Shown: positions 917 through 22,305 of the stretch, piece by piece | Layout: each line of letters begins with the position of its first letter | Position numbering within the stretch: the first letter of the stretch is position 1 | IMG/VR virus record: IMGVR_UViG_3300042515_002697 | Coordinates: 1 to 22,933 of that record | Source of the DNA: a virus | Reading direction: 5' to 3' (one strand) | Length of the DNA stretch: 22,933 nucleotides | Made by a program: the position numbers and the translations under genes | The notes under the pieces: generated by a model | What the model saw: only the letters and a program-made list of their open reading frames with translations | What the model was told of the DNA's origin: nothing | Databases searched by the model: none

Positions 917-1330
917 ATGTTACTCACACAGAAAAAATCAACAAATGTAATCGTTAATGGCACTTTCGATATTTTGCATGTTGGGCATTTAAAGTTGCTT
1001 GAATATGCAAAGTCTCTTGGTGACCATTTGACTGTTGCTATTGACACTGATCGCCGAATTAAAACGAAGAAGGGCCAATCTCGACCAATAAATAATGAGT
1101 ACGAGCGTAAGACTATGCTTGAACATTTGAAATCCGTCGACCAGGTAATCATCTTTGATTCTGACGAAGAACTTATTGATCTTGTGAAGAATTCTGATAT
1201 AATGGTCAAAGGTTCTGATTACAAAGGCAAGTCAGTCATCGGCGAAACATACTGCAAGAAAGTGATTTATTATGACCGCATCGAAGGTTATTCAACTACG
1301 CAAAAAATTCAGAGTATTGTTGATCGGTGA
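917..1330 (+). CDS. hldC: D-glycero-beta-D-manno-heptose 1-phosphate adenylyltransferase (HldE C-terminal domain as a separate protein)
   Basis: Encodes 137 residues, one complete nucleotidyltransferase domain. The signature NGTFDILHVGH (residues 14-24) holds the HxGH-type nucleotide-binding site; RPINNEYERKTML, IMVKGSDYKGKSVIG (95-109) and GYSTTQKI (124-131) follow the order of the HldE/RfaE adenylyltransferase domain. In the known pathway this enzyme transfers AMP from ATP to heptose 1-phosphate, giving ADP-D-glycero-D-manno-heptose in the cytoplasm. The kinase half of HldE is the next gene, so the bacterial fusion is split and in reversed order here. The close relative glycerol-3-phosphate cytidylyltransferase is the main alternative, but the kinase and epimerase neighbours favour heptose. 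The start has no ribosome site and sits 6 nt after a tRNA. Confidence 0.85.
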   Translation: MLLTQKKSTNVIVNGTFDILHVGHLKLLEYAKSLGDHLTVAIDTDRRIKTKKGQSRPINNEYERKTMLEHLKSVDQVIIFDSDEELIDLVKNSDIMVKGSDYKGKSVIGETYCKKVIYYDRIEGYSTTQKIQSIVDR

Positions 1331-2042
1331 TGATTGTGTTGATGTATATCGTTATGGTGTAGTTGAACGATTATCGCCTGAAGCTCCAGTTCCTGTTTTT
1401 AAATTTTCCTATGATGAAACAAAGCCGGGTATGGCTGCAAATGTATTGGAAAATTTAAAAGCATTAGGTTGCGATACTGATTATTTTCACGGCGGAACTT
1501 CCAATAAAACAAGACTGATTGATTTGCGAAGTGGTCAACACATTGTTCGTATTGATGATGATTGTGAATGTGTGCCCGTAACTCTTAATGGTGATTTGAA
1601 TTTAAATCGTTACGATGCAATCGTAATTTCAGATTACAATAAAGGTTCTGTTTCATATGAATTGATTCAAAATTTAAGAAAGTTTTTTGAAGGTCCTATT
1701 TTTGTTGACACGAAGAAAAAAGATTTGCAGCGCCTTGATGGTTGTTATATCAAAATAAATTTATTGGAATATAATTCACTTCAAACCCCAGCATTTGATT
1801 CGAAGATGATTGTTACAATGGGTGAAGAAGGTGCTATGTTTAACTCTAAAATTTACCCAGCGCCAGAAGTTGAAGTGGTAGATGTTACTGGCGCCGGCGA
1901 TACCTTTCTTGCCGCACTTACATACAAATTTCTGTTAACATCCAATATAGATAAGTCAATAGAGTTTGCAATTAAAGCCAGTTCAATTACTGTGCAACAT
2001 ATGGGCGTTCATGCTCCAAAATTGGAAGAAATATGCGACTAG
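1272..2042 (+). CDS. hldA: D-glycero-beta-D-manno-heptose-7-phosphate kinase (HldE N-terminal domain as a separate protein)
   Basis: Encodes 256 residues of the PfkB/ribokinase fold. FRVLLIGDDCVDVYRYG (from residue 13) and ERLSPEAPVPV (32-41) closely follow the start of bacterial HldE, KPGMAANV (51-58) is the substrate loop, VISDYNKG (118-125) is internal, and DVTGAGDTF (204-212) is the catalytic and anion-hole motif with the base Asp210. The known reaction phosphorylates heptose 7-phosphate at C1 with ATP. It is shorter than the roughly 310-320 residue bacterial domain, with the segment after residue 74 and the region near 170 cut down, so the lid may be reduced. ATG 1272 overlaps the upstream gene by 59 nt; homology begins just after it, so translation is probably coupled. 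Confidence 0.82.
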   Translation: MTASKVIQLRKKFRVLLIGDDCVDVYRYGVVERLSPEAPVPVFKFSYDETKPGMAANVLENLKALGCDTDYFHGGTSNKTRLIDLRSGQHIVRIDDDCECVPVTLNGDLNLNRYDAIVISDYNKGSVSYELIQNLRKFFEGPIFVDTKKKDLQRLDGCYIKINLLEYNSLQTPAFDSKMIVTMGEEGAMFNSKIYPAPEVEVVDVTGAGDTFLAALTYKFLLTSNIDKSIEFAIKASSITVQHMGVHAPKLEEICD

Positions 2043-2389
2043 AAGGTTTTGTTGAAAAAGGTTGGGGCCACGAATTAATTTGGTGCACCAATGAAAAGTA
2101 TTGTGGTAAATTGCTCAAGTTTAATAAGGGTGCAAAATTCAGTATGCACTTCCATGCTGAGAAAGATGAAACTTGGTATGTTTTAGATGGACAATTTATC
2201 GTAAGAGTTATTGATACGAAAGATGCAAAACAAAAAGAATATCTTTTGGAAGAAGGAAGCACTTGGCGTAATTTTCCTCTCCAACCTCATCAATTGGTTT
2301 GCATAAAAGAAGGCACTATTATTGAAGTTAGTACGCCCGATAGTGTTGAAGATAATTATCGTGTGATGCCGGGAGATTCACAAAAATGA
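2033..2389 (+). CDS. Single-domain cupin, possible sugar-phosphate isomerase
   Basis: Encodes 118 residues forming one cupin barrel. The first cupin motif has His39, His41 and Glu46 (MHFHAEKDETWYVLDG), and His86 in PHQLV supplies the usual fourth metal ligand. The lead-in GWGHELIW and YCGKLLKFNKGAKFS resembles the cupin domain of type II phosphomannose isomerases. It overlaps the kinase gene by 10 nt and is followed by the epimerase with a 4-nt overlap, so it is clearly part of the heptose operon. No GmhA (sedoheptulose-7-phosphate isomerase) is visible in the window; this cupin could fill that step, but that is inference. A non-catalytic or regulatory sugar-binding role is the alternative. 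Confidence 0.8.
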   Translation: MRLEGFVEKGWGHELIWCTNEKYCGKLLKFNKGAKFSMHFHAEKDETWYVLDGQFIVRVIDTKDAKQKEYLLEEGSTWRNFPLQPHQLVCIKEGTIIEVSTPDSVEDNYRVMPGDSQK

Positions 2390-3150
2390 AAATACTGTTG
2401 ACGGGTTACAAAGGTTTTATTGGAACAAACATGTTCCAAGCATTGAAGCAAAAACATGAAGTTGTTGGCTTCGATTGGAGTGATGATTTTCCAGATGTGT
2501 CTGGTTTCGACTGGGTGATTCATCTAGGTGCGATTAGCGCTACTACAGAAAAAGATGTAGAAAAAGTTATGCGTCATAACTATGACTTTTCTGTGGCACT
2601 TTATGAAGACTGTGTATTCAATGATGTAAATATGCAATACGCTTCTTCAGCCCAGTTGTATGGACTCGGCACAAATTTTAGTGAAGATGCGCCTGTAGAT
2701 CCTCGCTCACCATATGCTTGGTCAAAGTATCTTTTCGAGCGCTATGTTCGTATGAATCAATCGCCTGAGATTATTGTTCAAGGTTTTCGGTATTTTAATG
2801 TTTATGGTCCAAATGAGGCGCAGAAGGGTGATCAAGCAAGCCCATTTACAAAGTTTCGCAAACAAAAAGAAGAACTTGGTTATATCACAGTATTTGAGCC
2901 TGCCGGTAAATATAAGCGAGATTTCATTCATGTGAATGAAGTAATTGATTATCAAATGAAATTTTTGAATGTGAAAGAGTCTGGCGTTTGGAACATTGGC
3001 ACCGGCCAAACAATGAGTTTCTTGGAAGTAGCACAGTCTATTGGTGGTGAAATCCGAGAAATTCCTATACCAGTTCATATTAGGCCCTTTTATCAGGAAT
3101 ACACTTGTGCTGATATGACGAAAACTTGGCAAACTTTAAATAAAATATGA
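2386..3150 (+). CDS. hldD: ADP-L-glycero-D-manno-heptose 6-epimerase
   Basis: Encodes 254 residues, an extended short-chain dehydrogenase/reductase. It has the NAD(P)-binding TGYKGFIG (6-13), HLGAISATTEKD (46-57), which matches the HldD HEGACSSTTEWD segment, the catalytic YAWSK pair Tyr110/Lys114, GFRYFNVYGPNE, KRDFIHV, and a C-terminal IPIPVHIRPFYQEYTCADMTK region that parallels HldD substrate-binding sequence. The known reaction inverts C6 of ADP-D-glycero-D-manno-heptose to the L form used in LPS inner core. It is shorter than the roughly 310-residue E. coli enzyme, mostly through a trimmed C-terminus and middle. It overlaps the cupin and carbamoyltransferase genes by 4 nt each, so it is translationally coupled. 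Confidence 0.85.
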   Translation: MKILLTGYKGFIGTNMFQALKQKHEVVGFDWSDDFPDVSGFDWVIHLGAISATTEKDVEKVMRHNYDFSVALYEDCVFNDVNMQYASSAQLYGLGTNFSEDAPVDPRSPYAWSKYLFERYVRMNQSPEIIVQGFRYFNVYGPNEAQKGDQASPFTKFRKQKEELGYITVFEPAGKYKRDFIHVNEVIDYQMKFLNVKESGVWNIGTGQTMSFLEVAQSIGGEIREIPIPVHIRPFYQEYTCADMTKTWQTLNKI

Positions 3151-4802
3151 GGATAATGGCTTACACTGCCGCACACGACAGTTCGGTTTGTGTTATTAAT
3201 GACGGAGATGTGGAATATTTTTGTAAAGAAGAAAGACTGTCTAGAGAAAAAAGAGACGGAGCTCCTTTCTTGGCCGTGCAAAAATACAAAGAAAAATTTA
3301 ATGGTAAAATTGACCATATATTGTTTTGCACACCTACCAATTTGCCCGGAGCCGGATATAATTTTGTTAACTATATAAGAAAAAATTTTGGCGTAGAACA
3401 GGAAAATTACTCAGCATTAAAACATCATATTTGTCATGCTAGTTTGGCTTTTTACAATAGTGGATTTGACGAATGTTTAGTTTTCACAATCGATAGAAAT
3501 GGTTCTTTATTTTTTATAAATGAAAAACCAGTATGCCGTGAGTCGGAGTCGGTTTTTGTGTGTTCAGGAAATAACACAATTAAACCTGTTTATAAGTCAT
3601 TTTGGGTAATGAATGGCCATGAGTGGGATTTGTATCGAATAAAAACTCAGTTGCGAGAATATTATGGTGATGTAGATTTGGAAGTTGATAGTCCATATTC
3701 AATAGTTAAAGTGTATGAAGCCGCAACAACTTTAATAAAACAAAATGTACTTGAAAATGGCAAAACAATGGGTTTATCATCTTATGGTAGAAATAAAGAA
3801 TATGATCCACTTTTTATAAAAAATAGACCAATACCAAATCACTTTGTTCAAATGTTTGATTTAGACAATGAACACGGAGCTGTACATTTTTCAGATTCTT
3901 TGCATCTAATTGAAAAAAATATAACACCAGAAAACTTTCAATATTATGCTGATAAAGCTAAGCAAGTTCAAGTACAAACGCAAGAAGTGGTTTGCAACTT
4001 AATTGAAAAATATGTTAAACTTACAGGAATTAAAAATGTTTGTTTAGTTGGTGGTTATGGTTTAAATGTCGTTGCGAATGGTTTTTATATTAAAAAATTG
4101 CCAAATGTTAAATTTTATTTTGAACCTATAGCTGATGATGCTGGCATTTCAGTTGGCGCATCAATGTTAAAGTATTCTGAGTTGACTGGTGAGAAACCCT
4201 TGAGCATCAAAAATAATTTTTTTCATTTTTATGATTTCGAAGAAAAAATTAATGAAGGAGAGCAATCTTCGCTTGAAGAAATTTGTAACTTGTTAATTTC
4301 TGGAAAAAGTGTGGCTATATTTGAAGGACAACCAGAATCTGGTCCTAGAGCTTTAGGCCATCGTTCAATATTGTTTGATCCTAGAAATAAAAACGGTAAA
4401 AACTTAGTCAATAAAATTAAAAAAAGAGAATGGTACAGACCATTTGCTGGAACAATATTAAAAGAAAAATTTGAAGAATATTTTGAATCACATGGATTAA
4501 CAGAATCTCCTTATATGACAATTAATTTTTCATGTAAAGAAAAAACAATTGATTTTGTTCCAGCAATCGTGCATGTAGATAACACTTGTAGGATTCAAAC
4601 TGTTGAAGACGGATTTTTTTATGAGTTATTGGAAATGTTTTATGAAAAAACAGGATGTCCCATGCTTCTGAATACTAGCTTTAATTTGGCTGGTGAACCT
4701 TTGGTACAAACTAAAAAAGAAGCTTTAAAAACATTTAATAATACTACTTTAGATGCAATTTATTTCGTAGATGAAAATAAAATAGTTAAAAAAAATGACT
4801 AA
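3147..4802 (+). CDS. O-carbamoyltransferase (NodU/CmcH/TobZ family)
   Basis: Encodes 551 residues, near full length for the family. The N-terminal Kae1-like half starts with AYTAAHDSSVCVINDG and carries His93-x3-His97 (HHICH) of the metal/carbamoyl-adenylate site, then VCLVGGYGLNVVANG for nucleotide binding. The C-terminal half has EGQPESGPRALGHRSIL (about 393-409), the signature of the YrdC-like carbamoylation site, and LLNTSFNLAGEPLV. Known members make carbamoyl-AMP from carbamoyl phosphate and ATP and pass the carbamoyl group to a sugar hydroxyl. A second ATG at 3156 is also plausible as start. From here to 5418 the DNA is visibly richer in A/T runs than the surrounding genes, which suggests separate acquisition. 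The acceptor is unknown; a heptose glycan or modified nucleotide are options. Confidence 0.88.
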   Translation: MRIMAYTAAHDSSVCVINDGDVEYFCKEERLSREKRDGAPFLAVQKYKEKFNGKIDHILFCTPTNLPGAGYNFVNYIRKNFGVEQENYSALKHHICHASLAFYNSGFDECLVFTIDRNGSLFFINEKPVCRESESVFVCSGNNTIKPVYKSFWVMNGHEWDLYRIKTQLREYYGDVDLEVDSPYSIVKVYEAATTLIKQNVLENGKTMGLSSYGRNKEYDPLFIKNRPIPNHFVQMFDLDNEHGAVHFSDSLHLIEKNITPENFQYYADKAKQVQVQTQEVVCNLIEKYVKLTGIKNVCLVGGYGLNVVANGFYIKKLPNVKFYFEPIADDAGISVGASMLKYSELTGEKPLSIKNNFFHFYDFEEKINEGEQSSLEEICNLLISGKSVAIFEGQPESGPRALGHRSILFDPRNKNGKNLVNKIKKREWYRPFAGTILKEKFEEYFESHGLTESPYMTINFSCKEKTIDFVPAIVHVDNTCRIQTVEDGFFYELLEMFYEKTGCPMLLNTSFNLAGEPLVQTKKEALKTFNNTTLDAIYFVDENKIVKKND

Positions 4803-5670: not shown

Positions 5671-5748
5671 CTGACCGTAGCTCAGTAGGATTAGAGCAAC
5701 AGCCTTCTAAGCTGTGGGTCGGGGGTTCGAATCCCTCCGGTCAGGCCA
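5671..5748 (+). tRNA. tRNA-Arg (anticodon UCU)
   Basis: Acceptor CTGACCG (5671-5677) pairs with CGGTCAG (5738-5744), then G and encoded CCA. The anticodon arm ACAGC-CTTCTAA-GCTGT gives TCT, reading AGA/AGG. The T-loop TTCGAAT is canonical. The late promoter for the next genes begins 7 nt after its CCA. Confidence 0.94.
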
Positions 5749-5754
5749 AAACCT

Positions 5755-5762
5755 TATAAATA
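5755..5762 (+). promoter_or_regulatory. T4-type late promoter (TATAAATA)
   Basis: An exact match to the T4 late promoter consensus TATAAATA lies in the 79-nt gap between the tRNA-Arg and the ATG at 5828. Late promoters of this kind need the gp55 sigma factor and the gp33 co-activator; gp33 is encoded at 21467-21691. Transcription would start a few bases downstream and give a leader of roughly 60 nt. This predicts late expression of the exported-protein block at 5828-10289. Confidence 0.7.
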
Positions 5763-5827
5763 CCAAGTTCGATATATATTTTGCTCTTCTTTTGATTGTC
5801 GTAAATGAGTCAATCATAGGAGACAGA

Positions 5828-7090
5828 ATGAAAAAACTTTTAGTCGCTTTGTTTATGCTTGCGACTACTAGTATGGTCTACGCACAGACAACTAGTACAC
5901 AGTCCACTACAGGTGGCACTACAACAAGCACAACTACACCCATCAATCAGGGTAGTTATGATTCAAAGACCTTAGTAGACACTAACTCTACTTCGAATAG
6001 CACAAGTACCGTTACGACAAATAATAACAGTACGAGCACAAGCACGACCACTAGCAACAGCACAGTTAACAGTACAAATGTTAACACAAACAACAATGTC
6101 AATAGTGGTACCGTCACTTACAATAACAATAATAACAATGTGCAAAGTGGCACAGTAACAAACATCAATCAAAATACCACAAATGGTACTATCACGAACA
6201 ATAACAATAATGTGATGAGCGGTTCTGTTACATACACAAACAATAATGTACAAAGTGGAACGGTTACAAACAATAACAATAATGTAAACACAAATAGCTC
6301 TTCATCAACAAACACAAATACCAATCACAACATCAATAGCGGCACACAAACATTTAATAATAACAATGTAAGTACCAGCACATCAACAAATACAAATCAC
6401 AATATCAATTCTGGTACAATGACATACAATAACAATAATGTCAGCACTAGCACTAATATTAATAGAAATGAAAACACTGGTACAATGACGAATAACAATA
6501 ACAATGTTAACACATCAACCAGTACCAGTACAAACACGAATGTTAATACTAGCACAAGTCAAAATACAAATGTGAATCAGAATATCAATTCTGGTACAAT
6601 GACATATAACAATAATAATGTGAATCAGACAACAAGCACAAATGTAAATCAAAACAACAGCACATCAACCGCAACCAATGTTAATCAAAACATTCAGTCT
6701 GGTGAGATGACTAACCGTAATATCAATCAAAGTGAAATTACACAAAGAGTCGTTCAACCTCCACCAACTGCTATTGCTCCTGCAATGATGAGTATGGGTA
6801 GTGATTTGTGTGTAACTGGTGTTTCTGGTGCTACACAAACTCAAGTCTTTGGTTTAAGTTTTGGTGGCACAATGCGTGACCAAAACTGCGAAAGATTAAA
6901 ACTTTCTAAGACATTATTTGATATGGGTATGAAGGTAGCCGCTGTCGCTACTATGTGTCAAGACCGTAGAGTGTTTGATGCTATGATGGCCGCCGGCACT
7001 CCTTGCCCATATGAAGGTTTAATTGGTGAACAAGCTAAAGTCGCTTGGGCCGCAAATCCAGACAAAATTCCTAAAGCTATAAGAGAATGA
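5828..7090 (+). CDS. Exported Asn/Thr/Ser-rich repeat protein
   Basis: Encodes 420 residues from ATG 5828, preceded by a good ribosome site (AGGAG, 5818-5822); the open frame runs further upstream into the tRNA but the signal peptide fixes this start. Residues 1-20 are a Sec signal (MKKLLVALFML...SMVYA, cleavage before QTT). Residues about 65-315 hold some ten imperfect repeats of the form (N)(I/V)(N/Q)SGT-x-T-x-NNNN, separated by Ser/Thr/Asn tracts. Residues about 325-420 form a distinct globular domain with four cysteines (DLCVTG, DQNCERL, TMCQD, TPCPYEG). Regular TxT repeats suggest a beta-solenoid or fibre, exported to periplasm or surface. I do not recognise the family. It overlaps the next gene by 4 nt. 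Confidence 0.85.
   Translation: MKKLLVALFMLATTSMVYAQTTSTQSTTGGTTTSTTTPINQGSYDSKTLVDTNSTSNSTSTVTTNNNSTSTSTTTSNSTVNSTNVNTNNNVNSGTVTYNNNNNNVQSGTVTNINQNTTNGTITNNNNNVMSGSVTYTNNNVQSGTVTNNNNNVNTNSSSSTNTNTNHNINSGTQTFNNNNVSTSTSTNTNHNINSGTMTYNNNNVSTSTNINRNENTGTMTNNNNNVNTSTSTSTNTNVNTSTSQNTNVNQNINSGTMTYNNNNVNQTTSTNVNQNNSTSTATNVNQNIQSGEMTNRNINQSEITQRVVQPPPTAIAPAMMSMGSDLCVTGVSGATQTQVFGLSFGGTMRDQNCERLKLSKTLFDMGMKVAAVATMCQDRRVFDAMMAAGTPCPYEGLIGEQAKVAWAANPDKIPKAIRE
6088..6730 (+). repeat. Internal degenerate repeat array (Asn/Thr-rich)
   Basis: The DNA of this stretch is built from aacaataat-type and gtacaatgac-type units coding for SGTxTxNNNN repeats. About ten copies can be counted, diverging in spacing. 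It also includes an identical 26-nt direct repeat at 6401-6426 and 6581-6606, exactly 180 nt apart, showing recent duplication or recombination inside the array. Confidence 0.85.
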
Positions 7091-18572: not shown

Positions 18573-19256
18573 ATGGCAAAAAAACTACAGAATCAACAGA
18601 ACCATTTTTCTCTAAGAAGAATCAAGCCTTTAACAGTAAATCAAGAGGAAACATTTGATGCATTCAATCAAGGTAAACACCTACTCTTACATGGTGTTGC
18701 AGGAACAGGTAAAACATTTATATCTCTCTATCTAGCATTAAATGAAGTTCTCAAAGGAAATTCTTTTTACGATAAAATCGTTATCATTCGTTCTGTAGTT
18801 CCTAGTCGTGATATGGGATTTCTCCCAGGAAATGTAAAAGAAAAAACGAAAGTATACGAAGAACCATACCGAGAAATCTGTGATGATTTGTTTGGCCGAG
18901 GTGATGGTTATGACATACTGAAGACCAAAAAACTTATTGAATTCGGTACAACTTCATATTTGCGAGGCATAACTTTCAAAAATGCCATTGTAGTGGTTGA
19001 CGAATCACAAAATATGAATTACCATGAGCTTGATACGATCATCACACGAATCGGTGATAATTGCCGTATTGTGTTTTGTGGTGATTATCGACAAAGTGAT
19101 TTAAACTCAAAAGAGCGTACAGGTTTGCTTGAGTTTATGAAGATTATCGATAGAATGGGTTGTTTCGATAAGGTCGAATTTGGTGTTGAAGACATTGTTC
19201 GATCCGAATTGGTGAAAAATTATATTGTGACAAAATTGGAACTTGGTTTTGCGTAA
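18573..19256 (+). CDS. phoH: PhoH-like ATPase
   Basis: Encodes 227 residues, the P-loop domain only. Walker A GVAGTGKT (41-48), the PhoH motif IIRSVVPSRDMGFLPGN (71-87), TTSYLRGITFKNAIVVVDESQN with Walker B Asp143/Glu144, and FCGDYRQSD (sensor) are in the family order. PhoH proteins are ATPases with reported RNA helicase/nuclease links and are common in phages, where their role is unsettled. A ribosome site AGGA precedes the ATG. A strong terminator lies just upstream. The exonuclease gene overlaps its 3' end. Confidence 0.92.
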   Translation: MAKKLQNQQNHFSLRRIKPLTVNQEETFDAFNQGKHLLLHGVAGTGKTFISLYLALNEVLKGNSFYDKIVIIRSVVPSRDMGFLPGNVKEKTKVYEEPYREICDDLFGRGDGYDILKTKKLIEFGTTSYLRGITFKNAIVVVDESQNMNYHELDTIITRIGDNCRIVFCGDYRQSDLNSKERTGLLEFMKIIDRMGCFDKVEFGVEDIVRSELVKNYIVTKLELGFA

Positions 19257-19908
19257 CTTTGAATTTGTAAAATTAGAATCACTAGACTACGATCTAAAAG
19301 CAGTAACTACGGATGATGGAAGAGTGTACGAAACGCCAACTGGCGAAAAGTATCCTTCCATCACCACCGTTCTTTCATCGTATAACAAAAAGGCTATCTT
19401 TGAATGGCGTGAGCGTGTAGGTGCTGAAGAAGCAAATCGTATTGCTCGAAAAGCCTCAAGCCGTGGGACTAAACTTCACACAGTCTGTGAGAAATATCTT
19501 TTGAATGAATCAGATGGCATGAAGTTTAAAACCATGATGCCTGATACTAAAGAATTGTTTCTTCAATTGAAACCACACATTGACGAAAATGTTGGCCGTG
19601 TGTTTGGTATTGAGCAGGCATTGTTTAGTCATCGGTTGAAAATTGCTGGTCGTTGTGATTGTATTGCAGAATGGAATGGCCAACTTTCAATCGTTGATTA
19701 TAAAACAGCATCAAGAGAAAAATCTGAAGATGGTATTTTGAATTACTTTATGCAATGCACTGCCTACGCAGAAATGTTTGAGGAGCGAACAGGATTGCCA
19801 GTGAATCAAGTTGTTGTTGCAATTGCGGTTGAAAATGATAAACCACAAATCTTTGTCAGAGAGAAGCATAAATATATTAATGAGTTATTGAAGTATATTG
19901 CTGTATGA
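19249..19908 (+). CDS. PD-(D/E)XK exonuclease (RecB/MGME1-like)
   Basis: Encodes about 219 residues. YPSITTVLSSYNKKAIFEWRERVG and ASSRGTKLHTVCEKYL are the helical N-terminal features; the nuclease core is Glu122 (GIEQALF), Asp137 (GRCD) and Asp150-x-Lys152 (IVDYKTA), followed by the Gln of MQCTAYAEMF (motif IV). Such enzymes degrade single- or double-stranded DNA from ends. No ATG is available upstream of the conserved region. TTG 19249 is preferred because GGA lies 8 nt upstream and it gives a start (MRNFEFVKL) like relatives I recall; TTG 19243 is the alternative. The stop overlaps or abuts the acceptor half of the tmRNA. Confidence 0.82.
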   Translation: MRNFEFVKLESLDYDLKAVTTDDGRVYETPTGEKYPSITTVLSSYNKKAIFEWRERVGAEEANRIARKASSRGTKLHTVCEKYLLNESDGMKFKTMMPDTKELFLQLKPHIDENVGRVFGIEQALFSHRLKIAGRCDCIAEWNGQLSIVDYKTASREKSEDGILNYFMQCTAYAEMFEERTGLPVNQVVVAIAVENDKPQIFVREKHKYINELLKYIAV

Positions 19909-19960
19909 AGCAGAGAGAAAAGTGTTCTGGACGGCGGTTCGATTCCGCCCAGGTCCACCA
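19905..19960 (+). ncRNA. tmRNA acceptor piece
   Basis: The T-stem GGCGG/CCGCC closes loop TTCGATT (19938-19944), then acceptor strand CAGGTCC, discriminator A and encoded CCA (19958-19960). TGCTGT at 19899-19904, at the end of the exonuclease frame, could pair with ACAGCA (20122-20127) of the coding piece, so the true 5' end may lie a few bases inside that gene. Confidence 0.85.
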
Positions 19961-20079
19961 AAAGCATGGCAGCGAAAGACGCCTAACCAGCGACCCCACC
20001 TACAGGGGAGGACACGGTGAATCATCGATTGTTGTGGTGACGATTGTATGTATTCACACCGCAGTAGGATGCTTTTGAT
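19961..20079 (+). other. tmRNA intervening segment, highly structured
   Basis: It joins the mature 3' and 5' ends and would be removed. AAAGCAT (19961-19967) pairs with ATGCTTT (20069-20075), extending the acceptor stem region. Inside are a GCG-AAAGA-CGC hairpin, CCCC/GGGG (19994-19997/20005-20008) whose loop CCTAC (19999-20003) matches GTAGG (20064-20068) to form a pseudoknot, and CGGTGAAT (20015-20022) opposite ATTCACACCG (20052-20061). Confidence 0.75.
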
Positions 20080-20275
20080 GGGCCTGTATTGGTTTCGACA
20101 GGGCAAAGAGTAACAAAGTGGACAGCACGGCAACGCTAAAGCCGTTAGGGTTGGGACTACCCGGCCGTAGAAGCAAACCAAGTAAATGCAAACGATGAGC
20201 GTTTCGCATTAGCAGCCTAAACGCTGCTTAGGGTTCGGTGGGTTCCTCGTAACAGAATACCCACCATTTCACATC
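20080..20275 (+). ncRNA. tmRNA coding piece
   Basis: Runs from the acceptor strand GGGCCTG through the pseudoknot-like G/C region (CACGGCAACGCTAAAGCCGTTAG area), the tag frame (20188-20220) and a terminal helix GGTGGGT/ACCCACC (20237-20243/20259-20265) with a GTAACAGAAT loop. The 3' end is placed just after this helix; a further hairpin at 20289-20303 may mark the processing limit. Confidence 0.85.
20188..20220 (+). other. tmRNA proteolysis tag reading frame (ANDERFALAA)
   Basis: Resume codon GCA at 20188, then codons for NDERFALAA and stop TAA at 20218-20220. The ending ALAA is the signal read by ClpXP and related proteases. The whole tag is of bacterial type and resembles betaproteobacterial tags as I remember them. 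Confidence 0.93.
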
Positions 20276-20288
20276 TTATTAATGTTGC

Positions 20289-20303
20289 GACTTTTGAAAA
20301 GTC
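20289..20303 (+). other. Hairpin downstream of tmRNA
   Basis: GACTTTT/AAAAGTC around a single G, so in practice a 6-bp stem with a TGA loop. It lies between the tmRNA coding piece and the wall hydrolase ribosome site. No proper U-run follows, so a processing or 3'-end stabilising role is as likely as termination. Confidence 0.5.
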
Positions 20304-20334
20304 CAGTGGATTAAATTTCTTTGAAAGGAGACAA

Positions 20335-20892
20335 ATGGGTTCAAGACTAATACTTGCAGGCCTATTGTTGTCGAGTGTCATTTTAATGCTAACAGCAATT
20401 CATGTTGACACTAGAAGCATTCTACCAATGAAAGCGCCATTTAAAGCACTTGCGCCAGAAGCTCAAAAACAAATCTCTTGTTTGGCCGAAAACATTTATT
20501 TCGAAGCGAAGAGCGAACCAAAAGAGGGTAAAATCGCTGTTGCTTTTGTCACTTTGAACCGCCTCAGAACCGGCAACTATGCAGACACAATATGTGGCGT
20601 GGTTACTCAGAAAACCAACGGTGTTTGCCAGTTCTCGTGGTATTGTGACTCGAGCATTACCAGTAAGCGCTTGACAATTAAGAACAGTCCAGTATATAAT
20701 GATATCTTAGAAATGTCAACATATCTTTACCTGAACATTCATAGGGTACAAGATGTAACGAATGGTGCGACATTTTATCACGCTGACTATGTAAATCCTG
20801 GTTGGCAATTGAAAAAGGAAAAGCAAATTGGCAGACACATCTTCTACAAACGAAACGGAGATCAAATTGACAGAAACAAAACTATCATATAA
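20335..20892 (+). CDS. SleB/CwlJ-type cell wall hydrolase (probable endolysin)
   Basis: Encodes 185 residues. Residues about 4-22 are a hydrophobic segment (RLILAGLLLSSVILMLTAI) without a clear cleavage site, so it may be a signal-anchor that carries the enzyme into the periplasm. The Hydrolase_2 domain follows: CLAENIYFEAKSEPKEGKIAVAFVTLNR (49-76, with catalytic-type Glu57), GVCQFSWYCD and ATFYHADYVNPGW. The fold cleaves peptidoglycan glycan strands and is common as lysin in T4-like phages of aquatic bacteria. A strong AAAGGAG ribosome site lies 5 nt upstream. An internal promoter at 20671-20700 lies in its coding region, and the next gene starts inside it. Confidence 0.86.
   Translation: MGSRLILAGLLLSSVILMLTAIHVDTRSILPMKAPFKALAPEAQKQISCLAENIYFEAKSEPKEGKIAVAFVTLNRLRTGNYADTICGVVTQKTNGVCQFSWYCDSSITSKRLTIKNSPVYNDILEMSTYLYLNIHRVQDVTNGATFYHADYVNPGWQLKKEKQIGRHIFYKRNGDQIDRNKTII
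20671..20700 (+). promoter_or_regulatory. Consensus promoter inside the hydrolase gene
   Basis: TTGACA (20671-20676) and TATAAT (20695-20700), both perfect, spacer 18, within the CTTGACAATT box shared with other promoters here. Expected start is about 20707, giving a leader of about 160 nt for the next gene. It sits in coding sequence, which keeps confidence moderate. Confidence 0.6.
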
Positions 20893-21132: not shown

Positions 21133-21477
21133 ATGAAATTCACGCTTGTTTCACACGAAGAATTCGCCGGCAGCAAGTTGACGCTTGAGTTTGATGCTGT
21201 GAGTCTTTCTGATGTTCTTCCACGATTTGAAGATTTTCTTCGTGGTTCTGGTTTTGTTTTTGATGGTGTAGTAGACATTGTTGAATTCGAAGACTCTGAT
21301 GTTGATTATGAAATTGGTGAAAAAGTCTTTGATAATTTGGTTGCAGGTTTGAATGGAACTAGTGCTGTGCAAGACCAAGCTGAATTGTGTAGTGTTTGTG
21401 GTATTTCAAAGGCTCGAATGGAAGGACACACTTGTTGGGACGAAAAGTGCCCAATGAAGGAGTACAATGCCAACTAA
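21133..21477 (+). CDS. Conserved phage protein with C-terminal zinc-ribbon
   Basis: Encodes 114 residues. The N-terminal domain (MKFTLVSHEEFAGSKLTLEFDAVSLSDVLPRFEDFLRGSGFVFDG) is a conserved pattern I recall in T4-like phages; an acidic linker follows; the C-terminus carries Cys-x2-Cys (LCSVCG) and a second pair (CWDEKCPM) 14 residues later, fitting a zinc knuckle. Ribosome site GGAG at 21121-21124. It overlaps gene 33 by 11 nt and may be part of the same control unit. Function unknown. Confidence 0.78.
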   Translation: MKFTLVSHEEFAGSKLTLEFDAVSLSDVLPRFEDFLRGSGFVFDGVVDIVEFEDSDVDYEIGEKVFDNLVAGLNGTSAVQDQAELCSVCGISKARMEGHTCWDEKCPMKEYNAN

Positions 21478-21691
21478 GGACGAAATGAAAAAGTTTGCTT
21501 TTGCTATCGATAGCATGGTAGCAAACACAGATTACACATATCTAGAAGCAATTATAGAATATTGCAAAGAAACAGGACTTGAAATAGAAGTTGCTGCTTC
21601 ATTGATTAACTCGTCACTCAAAACTAAAATTGAGTCGCAAGCAATGGAGCAAAACATGTTGAAAATAAAAACATCACGACTACCAATATGA
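21467..21691 (+). CDS. 33: Late transcription co-activator gp33
   Basis: Encodes 74 residues, shorter than T4 gp33 (112). The central helix region MVANTDYTYLEAIIEYCKETGLEIEVAASLINSSLKTKIESQAMEQNML parallels T4 gp33 (YLEATTAFLEEN ... KIQSEAIDENLL). In T4, gp33 binds the beta-flap of host RNA polymerase and links it to the sliding clamp gp45 so that gp55-directed late promoters fire. The T4 N-terminal extension is absent; the C-terminal end is a short basic-hydrophobic tail (KTSRLPI), where T4 carries its clamp-binding motif. Position directly before gene 59 agrees with T4 gene neighbourhood. Ribosome site GGAG at 21459-21461. Confidence 0.83.
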   Translation: MPTKDEMKKFAFAIDSMVANTDYTYLEAIIEYCKETGLEIEVAASLINSSLKTKIESQAMEQNMLKIKTSRLPI

Positions 21692-22305
21692 TAACTGGTT
21701 ATGAGGCATTTGGAATTTTTCAAGCACTCAAGCTGCATTTCAATTCAGACAGTTATGATTTCTTCAAGTACAATGGCAAGAGTAAAATCTCTGTAGATTC
21801 TTTTGAAAATCGTAAAGACAAGTATCATTTCTACAAGCTATCTCGTAGACTTAGCAACAAAGATGAGTTGATTCTTTTCATTGTTGCTAATTTGTTGAAC
21901 AATGATAATTTGTGGGTCGGCGATTTGTTGACCGAAGAATCCGAAACTGTTTATCGTGAGCGTATGAAAGTCATTCAAAGTCTCTCGTACACTTTTGAAA
22001 ATGATTGTCGAAAACTCTTTGATGGTATCGACAATCCAAATGATTTGTTGCAAAGTGACGATGGCGACTATCCAGTTCTTTTGCGTATGGCTTTGCGTAA
22101 AGAAATTTCAATTGAAACGTTGTGTATTTTGAATTCTATTCTGAAGTTCTTTCCGATGTGGTCACGAAAGATTACCGATACAGTTCGATGGCCAGACTAC
22201 CGAAGGAAAGTTCTAAAGTTTGCCGCATTTCTGTCTTTTGATGATGTAAAATACAAGTCTATTCTGAAAAAAGTGATTACTGAAAATGAAAAAGCTATAT
22301 CTTGA
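21688..22305 (+). CDS. 59: Replicative helicase loader gp59
   Basis: Encodes 205 residues against 217 in T4. Similarity to T4 gp59 is plain in the N-terminal half: YDFFKYNGKSKISVDSFENR, then KDKYHFYKLSRR (T4 RDKYFFQKLSEK), LILFIVANLLNNDNLWVGDL (T4 ALIFISNLVANQDAWIGDI), and VYRERMKVIQSLSYTFENDCRKL. gp59 binds forked DNA and gp32 and loads the gp41 helicase for recombination-dependent replication. ATG overlaps the gene 33 stop by 4 nt, so loader and late activator are coupled. It overlaps the next gene by 20 nt. Confidence 0.9.
   Translation: MITGYEAFGIFQALKLHFNSDSYDFFKYNGKSKISVDSFENRKDKYHFYKLSRRLSNKDELILFIVANLLNNDNLWVGDLLTEESETVYRERMKVIQSLSYTFENDCRKLFDGIDNPNDLLQSDDGDYPVLLRMALRKEISIETLCILNSILKFFPMWSRKITDTVRWPDYRRKVLKFAAFLSFDDVKYKSILKKVITENEKAIS

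Follow-up and report, generated by a model that had tools for sequence, protein, structure and literature searches.

The DNA analysed here (the window) is 22,933 bases of a virus record and carries the T4-like genes for PhoH, an exonuclease, gp33-like and gp59-like proteins and an RNase H-like exonuclease. The window phage is a freshwater-type, T4-like (Kyanoviridae-like) aquatic phage. Downstream of the PhoH and exonuclease genes lies a complete circularly permuted tmRNA gene (19897–20271, plus strand), followed by an endolysin gene and the gp33- and gp59-like genes (Table 1). The 5′ end of the tmRNA gene lies within the final codons of the exonuclease gene. Further features of the window are a run of sugar-nucleotide genes at 917–4802 (heptose kinase/adenylyltransferase-like, epimerase, NolO-like carbamoyltransferase), whose predicted products suggest glycan synthesis or modification, and a predicted protein rich in Asn/Thr/Ser repeats at 5714–7090, which matches phrog_20531 (function unknown).

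Table 1. Features of the tmRNA locus and the evidence for each
Feature	Position	Strand	Evidence and remarks
PhoH-like protein gene	18573–19256	+	phrog_170, E 8e-82; syntenic in relatives and Melnitz
PD-(D/E)XK/Cas4-like exonuclease gene	19243–19908	+	phrog_298, E 3e-67; stop codon 19906–19908
tmRNA acceptor piece, first in gene	19897–19960	+	RF04321 and RF01850 alignments; covariation in 116 relatives; mature 5′ end approximate
Intervening segment (spacer), 119 nt, removal expected	19961–20079	+	sequence and fold
tmRNA coding piece: acceptor 5′ strand, D-like region, P2a and P2 3′ strands, tag frame, 3′ hairpin	20080–20271	+	ARAGORN, Rfam, covariation
Tag reading frame: resume codon GCA, ANDERFALAA, stop TAA	20188–20220	+	ARAGORN; variation among 87 ten-residue tags favouring third codon positions
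SleB-type cell wall hydrolase/endolysin gene, 3′ of tmRNA	20335–20892	+	phrog_938, E 1e-21
gp33-like late transcription coactivator gene, downstream locus marker	21467–21691	+	phrog_254, E 4e-16
gp59-like helicase loader gene	21688–22305	+	phrog_269, E 2e-56

ARAGORN reported a permuted tmRNA (tmRNA*) at 19868–20311 with the tag ANDERFALAA. The acceptor piece with its CCA comes first and ends at 19960, and the coding piece starts at 20080 after the spacer. The 3′ strand of the acceptor stem, CAGGTCC (19950–19956), is followed by the discriminator A (19957) and an encoded CCA (19958–19960) and pairs at seven of seven positions, including G3–U70, with the 5′ strand GGGCCTG (20080–20086). The T arm reads GGCGG-TTCGATT-CCGCC (19933–19949), and P2 is formed by TGCTGT (19899–19904), which begins within the final codons of the exonuclease, and ACAGCA (20122–20127). 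The ends of the spacer, AAAGCAT and ATGCTTT, are able to pair according to the sequence and its predicted fold. An initial sequence-only reading had described a full permuted tmRNA with the acceptor half and CCA upstream of the coding half, the tag ANDERFALAA, a 7-bp acceptor stem and boundaries at 19960/20080. ARAGORN and RF04321 bore out the first of these and ARAGORN the second, and the stem and boundaries are exact in the sequence. Its gene extent of 19905–20275 was near exact in location but began a few bases too far to the right, as P2 starts at 19899 and the gene at about 19897.

Rfam matches were taken at the gathering threshold. The tmRNA_permuted model (RF04321) aligned to 19899–20220 over model positions 1–213 of 213 with 123.9 bits (E 3.4e-24, cut-off 47), and beta_tmRNA (RF01850) aligned to 19839–20271 with 120.4 bits (E 1.5e-36, cut-off 84). 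Both matches are far above chance and span the full length of their models. The check by permuted-class covariance models that the sequence-only reading had proposed thus came out in its favour. The alpha model scored 46.5 bits, under its cut-off of 50. Because the beta score exceeds both its cut-off and the alpha score, the window tmRNA is, as judged by these models, of the beta type (the betaproteobacterial subtype, RF01850).

Like the betaproteobacterial permuted tmRNAs described by RF01850, for example that of Cupriavidus, the window gene shows this gene order, tRNA-like domain and style of tag, and the window and Cupriavidus share 97.6% identity over 42 nt of the acceptor piece. However, the Cupriavidus gene reaches 284 bits with the beta model. 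The window gene differs from the betaproteobacterial form in its longer spacer, in a longer loop of the first post-P2 stem and in the deletion of the final RF01850 stem from its alignment, so that not all of the model stems after the tag are present. Complete beta-type permuted tmRNAs with the tag ANDEKFALAA also occur on large plasmids or chromids of Cupriavidus (L206 and L207, both at 544–875; L208 is similar), at sites where the plasmid gene table, which leaves out RNA genes, lists no feature.

Relatives were gathered in two ways, as viral contigs with the conserved acceptor-piece pattern and, independently of the tmRNA, as contigs encoding an exonuclease relative. In each of 116 unique aligned viral tmRNAs the seven P1 pairs and the five T-stem pairs all form, whereas in shuffles of the most variable stem pairs only 48–68 of 116 still pair. 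Compensatory change in the acceptor and T stems is extensive: P1 pair 4 is C–G in 57 sequences and G–C in 58, and pair 5 occurs as six standard pair types (about 58 in shuffles). The alanine identity pair G3–U70 is invariant (116/116) and the P2a pairs form in 114–116 of 116, with the outer P2 stem less conserved than the others. CCA is encoded in 124 of 125 viral permuted tmRNAs, and spacer length is not conserved (25–214 nt). Among the 87 ten-residue tags, positions A1, N2, A9 and A10 are nearly fixed and changes there fall almost wholly on third codon bases; nearly all relatives retain a complete frame and the AA end.

On this comparative evidence the window tmRNA is a real, selected gene, because the stems covary, G3–U70 is invariant and tag variation is confined largely to third positions. 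Stem pairing, tag bias and a free spacer together are the pattern that a working two-piece tmRNA would leave in its sequence. It is very improbable that the gene is a neutral passenger or an attachment-site relic from a host chromosome, without a role. Its presence is indeed polymorphic, and two contigs (L138/L139) differ cleanly in having or lacking the whole gene at the same site. However, perfect stem covariation and third-base bias persist across deep divergence, and the locus is of a virulent T4-like type. The gene is also whole, where an attachment site would be expected to leave only a fragment; that origin was rejected on synteny, completeness and covariation.

A number of the viral permuted tmRNAs have long tags of 23–31 residues (L017, L025, L037, L044, L065, L071, L072, L077, L083 and L097), and the long-tag group further includes L008, L032, L062, L066, L101 and L117. 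Many of the 23–31-residue tags share NADTFDFSAMSFTGN ahead of differing ...ALAA ends. They look translated, because their codon variation is mostly synonymous. None of the listed tmRNAs with such a tag was placed at the exonuclease–gp33 locus.

When relatives were collected by their exonuclease, at least 56 of 78 carried a permuted tmRNA (ARAGORN, plus 9 more through RF04321). ARAGORN and RF04321 found none in the remaining 22, including a 157.7-kb contig, and the gene is therefore dispensable. In a pattern scan, 54 of 103 permuted tmRNAs had the exonuclease just upstream or gp33/gp59 downstream. The order PhoH–exonuclease–tmRNA–gp33–gp59 is common to the window and Melnitz, a Methylophilales phage (MZ577097) that is likewise T4-like and aquatic with a permuted two-piece ssrA behind a PD-(D/E)XK nuclease gene (PMC9004378). 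In contrast to the window, Melnitz has an alpha-type tmRNA with the tag ANDNYVPVDYALAA, and a glutamine riboswitch was reported for it (PMC9004378), of which Rfam gave no match in the window.

This neighbourhood also bears on whether the gene could stem from host chromosome contamination or a chimeric contig. The gene's good score with a bacterial subtype model would agree with such a source, but phage genes flank the tmRNA on both sides, numerous independent viral contigs contain an identical or similar gene with its flanks, and this order recurs in the cultured phage Melnitz. The conserved phage neighbourhood refutes host contamination, and we give this explanation next to no weight. The initial description of a phage-borne, structurally intact and functional-looking gene is upheld by these flanks, by all of its stems and by the covariation in the 116 relatives.

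The same reading had called tmRNAs rare in phages, which for this phage group is contradicted both by the frequency above and by a published set of 133 unique phage tmRNAs, of which 53 are two-piece, 50 of these being of marine or aquatic origin (PMC9004378). Aquatic phages were thus already known to carry two-piece tmRNA, and it is not rare in this group. What goes beyond published findings in the literature searched is the conserved locus, the patchy presence and an apparent exchange of tRNA-like and tag modules. As in the window, a tmRNA is encoded by several mycobacteriophages, Bxz1 and Wildcat among them, and by Bacillus phage G (PMC4131195). These are different phages with the gene at a different locus, and their tmRNAs are, as far as is known, of the standard one-piece form.

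Two further observations concern the distribution of these genes. The cultured Kyanoviridae member Synechococcus phage BUCT-ZZ01 (ON615601) has a permuted tmRNA with the tag ANDETFSMALAA at L215:5802–6220 that is unannotated in its record. An identical 31-nt alpha-type acceptor piece is found in at least 120 viral contigs (L217–L295); 13 of 80 examined contigs have it at the exonuclease–gp33 locus, and it mostly lies elsewhere.

The Melnitz gene scores 106.7 bits with the alpha model and 25.0 with the beta model. Different subtypes thus occupy one and the same phage position, beta in the window and alpha in Melnitz. While the position is conserved, the tmRNA sequences do not follow the phage tree. 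Comparison of tmRNA and exonuclease distances gave a non-significant Mantel r of 0.10 (216 of 2000 permutations were as high), leaving phage-wide co-inheritance of the two unsupported outside close kin.

The two tRNA-like halves of the gene vary together (r 0.86), whereas their correlation with the post-tag region is only 0.11–0.12, a low value that partly reflects fast change of the 3′ region; the safest cases are thus the 8 pairs that share the 3′ part but differ in the tRNA-like domain. In the clearest, L134/L135, the flanks are 97.6–99.7% identical and the tag and 3′ end are the same, but one contig has a beta-type domain and the other an alpha-type domain (T loop GGCAGTA); the hybrid junction of L135 is seen in one contig only, and for that case an assembly chimera is possible. 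Conversely, L179/L183 and L181 have an identical tRNA-like domain with different tags and 3′ ends. Tags and 3′ ends overall vary more freely than the tRNA-like part, and the two modules apparently reassort. Because the permutation puts both halves side by side, one recombination event could replace the whole tRNA-like domain and keep the tag. Such a swap would perhaps adapt the molecule to a new host's SmpB, synthetase or processing enzymes. We tentatively propose, as one possible reading of these patterns, that the permuted tmRNA may be a resident locus of T4-like aquatic phages, with its tRNA-like domain acting as a cassette that can be exchanged.

The origin first suggested from the sequence, capture from a host with a permuted ssrA, survives in part. 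A beta-type permuted ancestor fits the window gene, but a recent capture is not supported, given the phage locus shared with Melnitz, the module exchange and the polymorphic presence. Tag-based patterns run twice through a full collection of 84,980 genomes gave no match, and since these patterns fixed the pre-tag bases they say little about the donor. No DNA similarity to the window tmRNA gene was found among isolate phages.

A near-consensus sigma70 promoter lies just upstream of the tmRNA in 42 of 122 relatives, compared with 5.2 in shuffles, but none could be recognised ahead of the tmRNA gene in the window. T4-type late promoters (TATAAATA-like) were in only slight excess (47 of 122 versus 35.7 in shuffles) and are not claimed. 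A search for SmpB (PF01668) in 36 viral records, of which several exceed 150 kb, gave no match; function is therefore presumed to depend on host SmpB.

The window, from a T4-like (Kyanoviridae-like) aquatic phage, probably encodes a functional circularly permuted tmRNA of the beta type, and a role in ribosome rescue is likely. The transcript, perhaps a run-on from the PhoH–exonuclease operon, would be cut by host tRNA-processing enzymes at 19960 and 20079/20080, with loss of the spacer, and the two pieces would remain paired via P1 and P2. Following alanine charging by host AlaRS, host SmpB and EF-Tu would deliver the tmRNA to ribosomes stalled on broken mRNA. Translation would resume at GCA 20188 and add AANDERFALAA for ClpXP. 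Ribosomes may thereby stay available to the phage during destruction of host RNA and DNA. In T4 infection host SsrA remains intact while host tRNAs are degraded, and the authors of that work suggest a similar benefit, the freeing of ribosomes stalled on broken messages (PMC9697503).

A charged phage tmRNA might instead serve mainly to outcompete or retarget the host tmRNA, by sequestering SmpB or altering the choice of degraded proteins. The freer variation of tags and 3′ ends would agree with this, as would the tag-less tmRNA of phage DS6A, which resembles an inhibitor of host tmRNA (PMC4131195, PMC11915505). However, the complete tag frame and AA end kept by nearly all relatives would be needless for a pure decoy, and we consider this alternative to ribosome rescue unlikely.

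Permuted tmRNA is common in a large group of aquatic T4-like phages, most of them uncultured, where the gene is under selection and keeps its position. Naturally swapped tRNA-like domains and tags allow testing of which part must match the host, and ribosome rescue looks like a regular part of host takeover by these phages.
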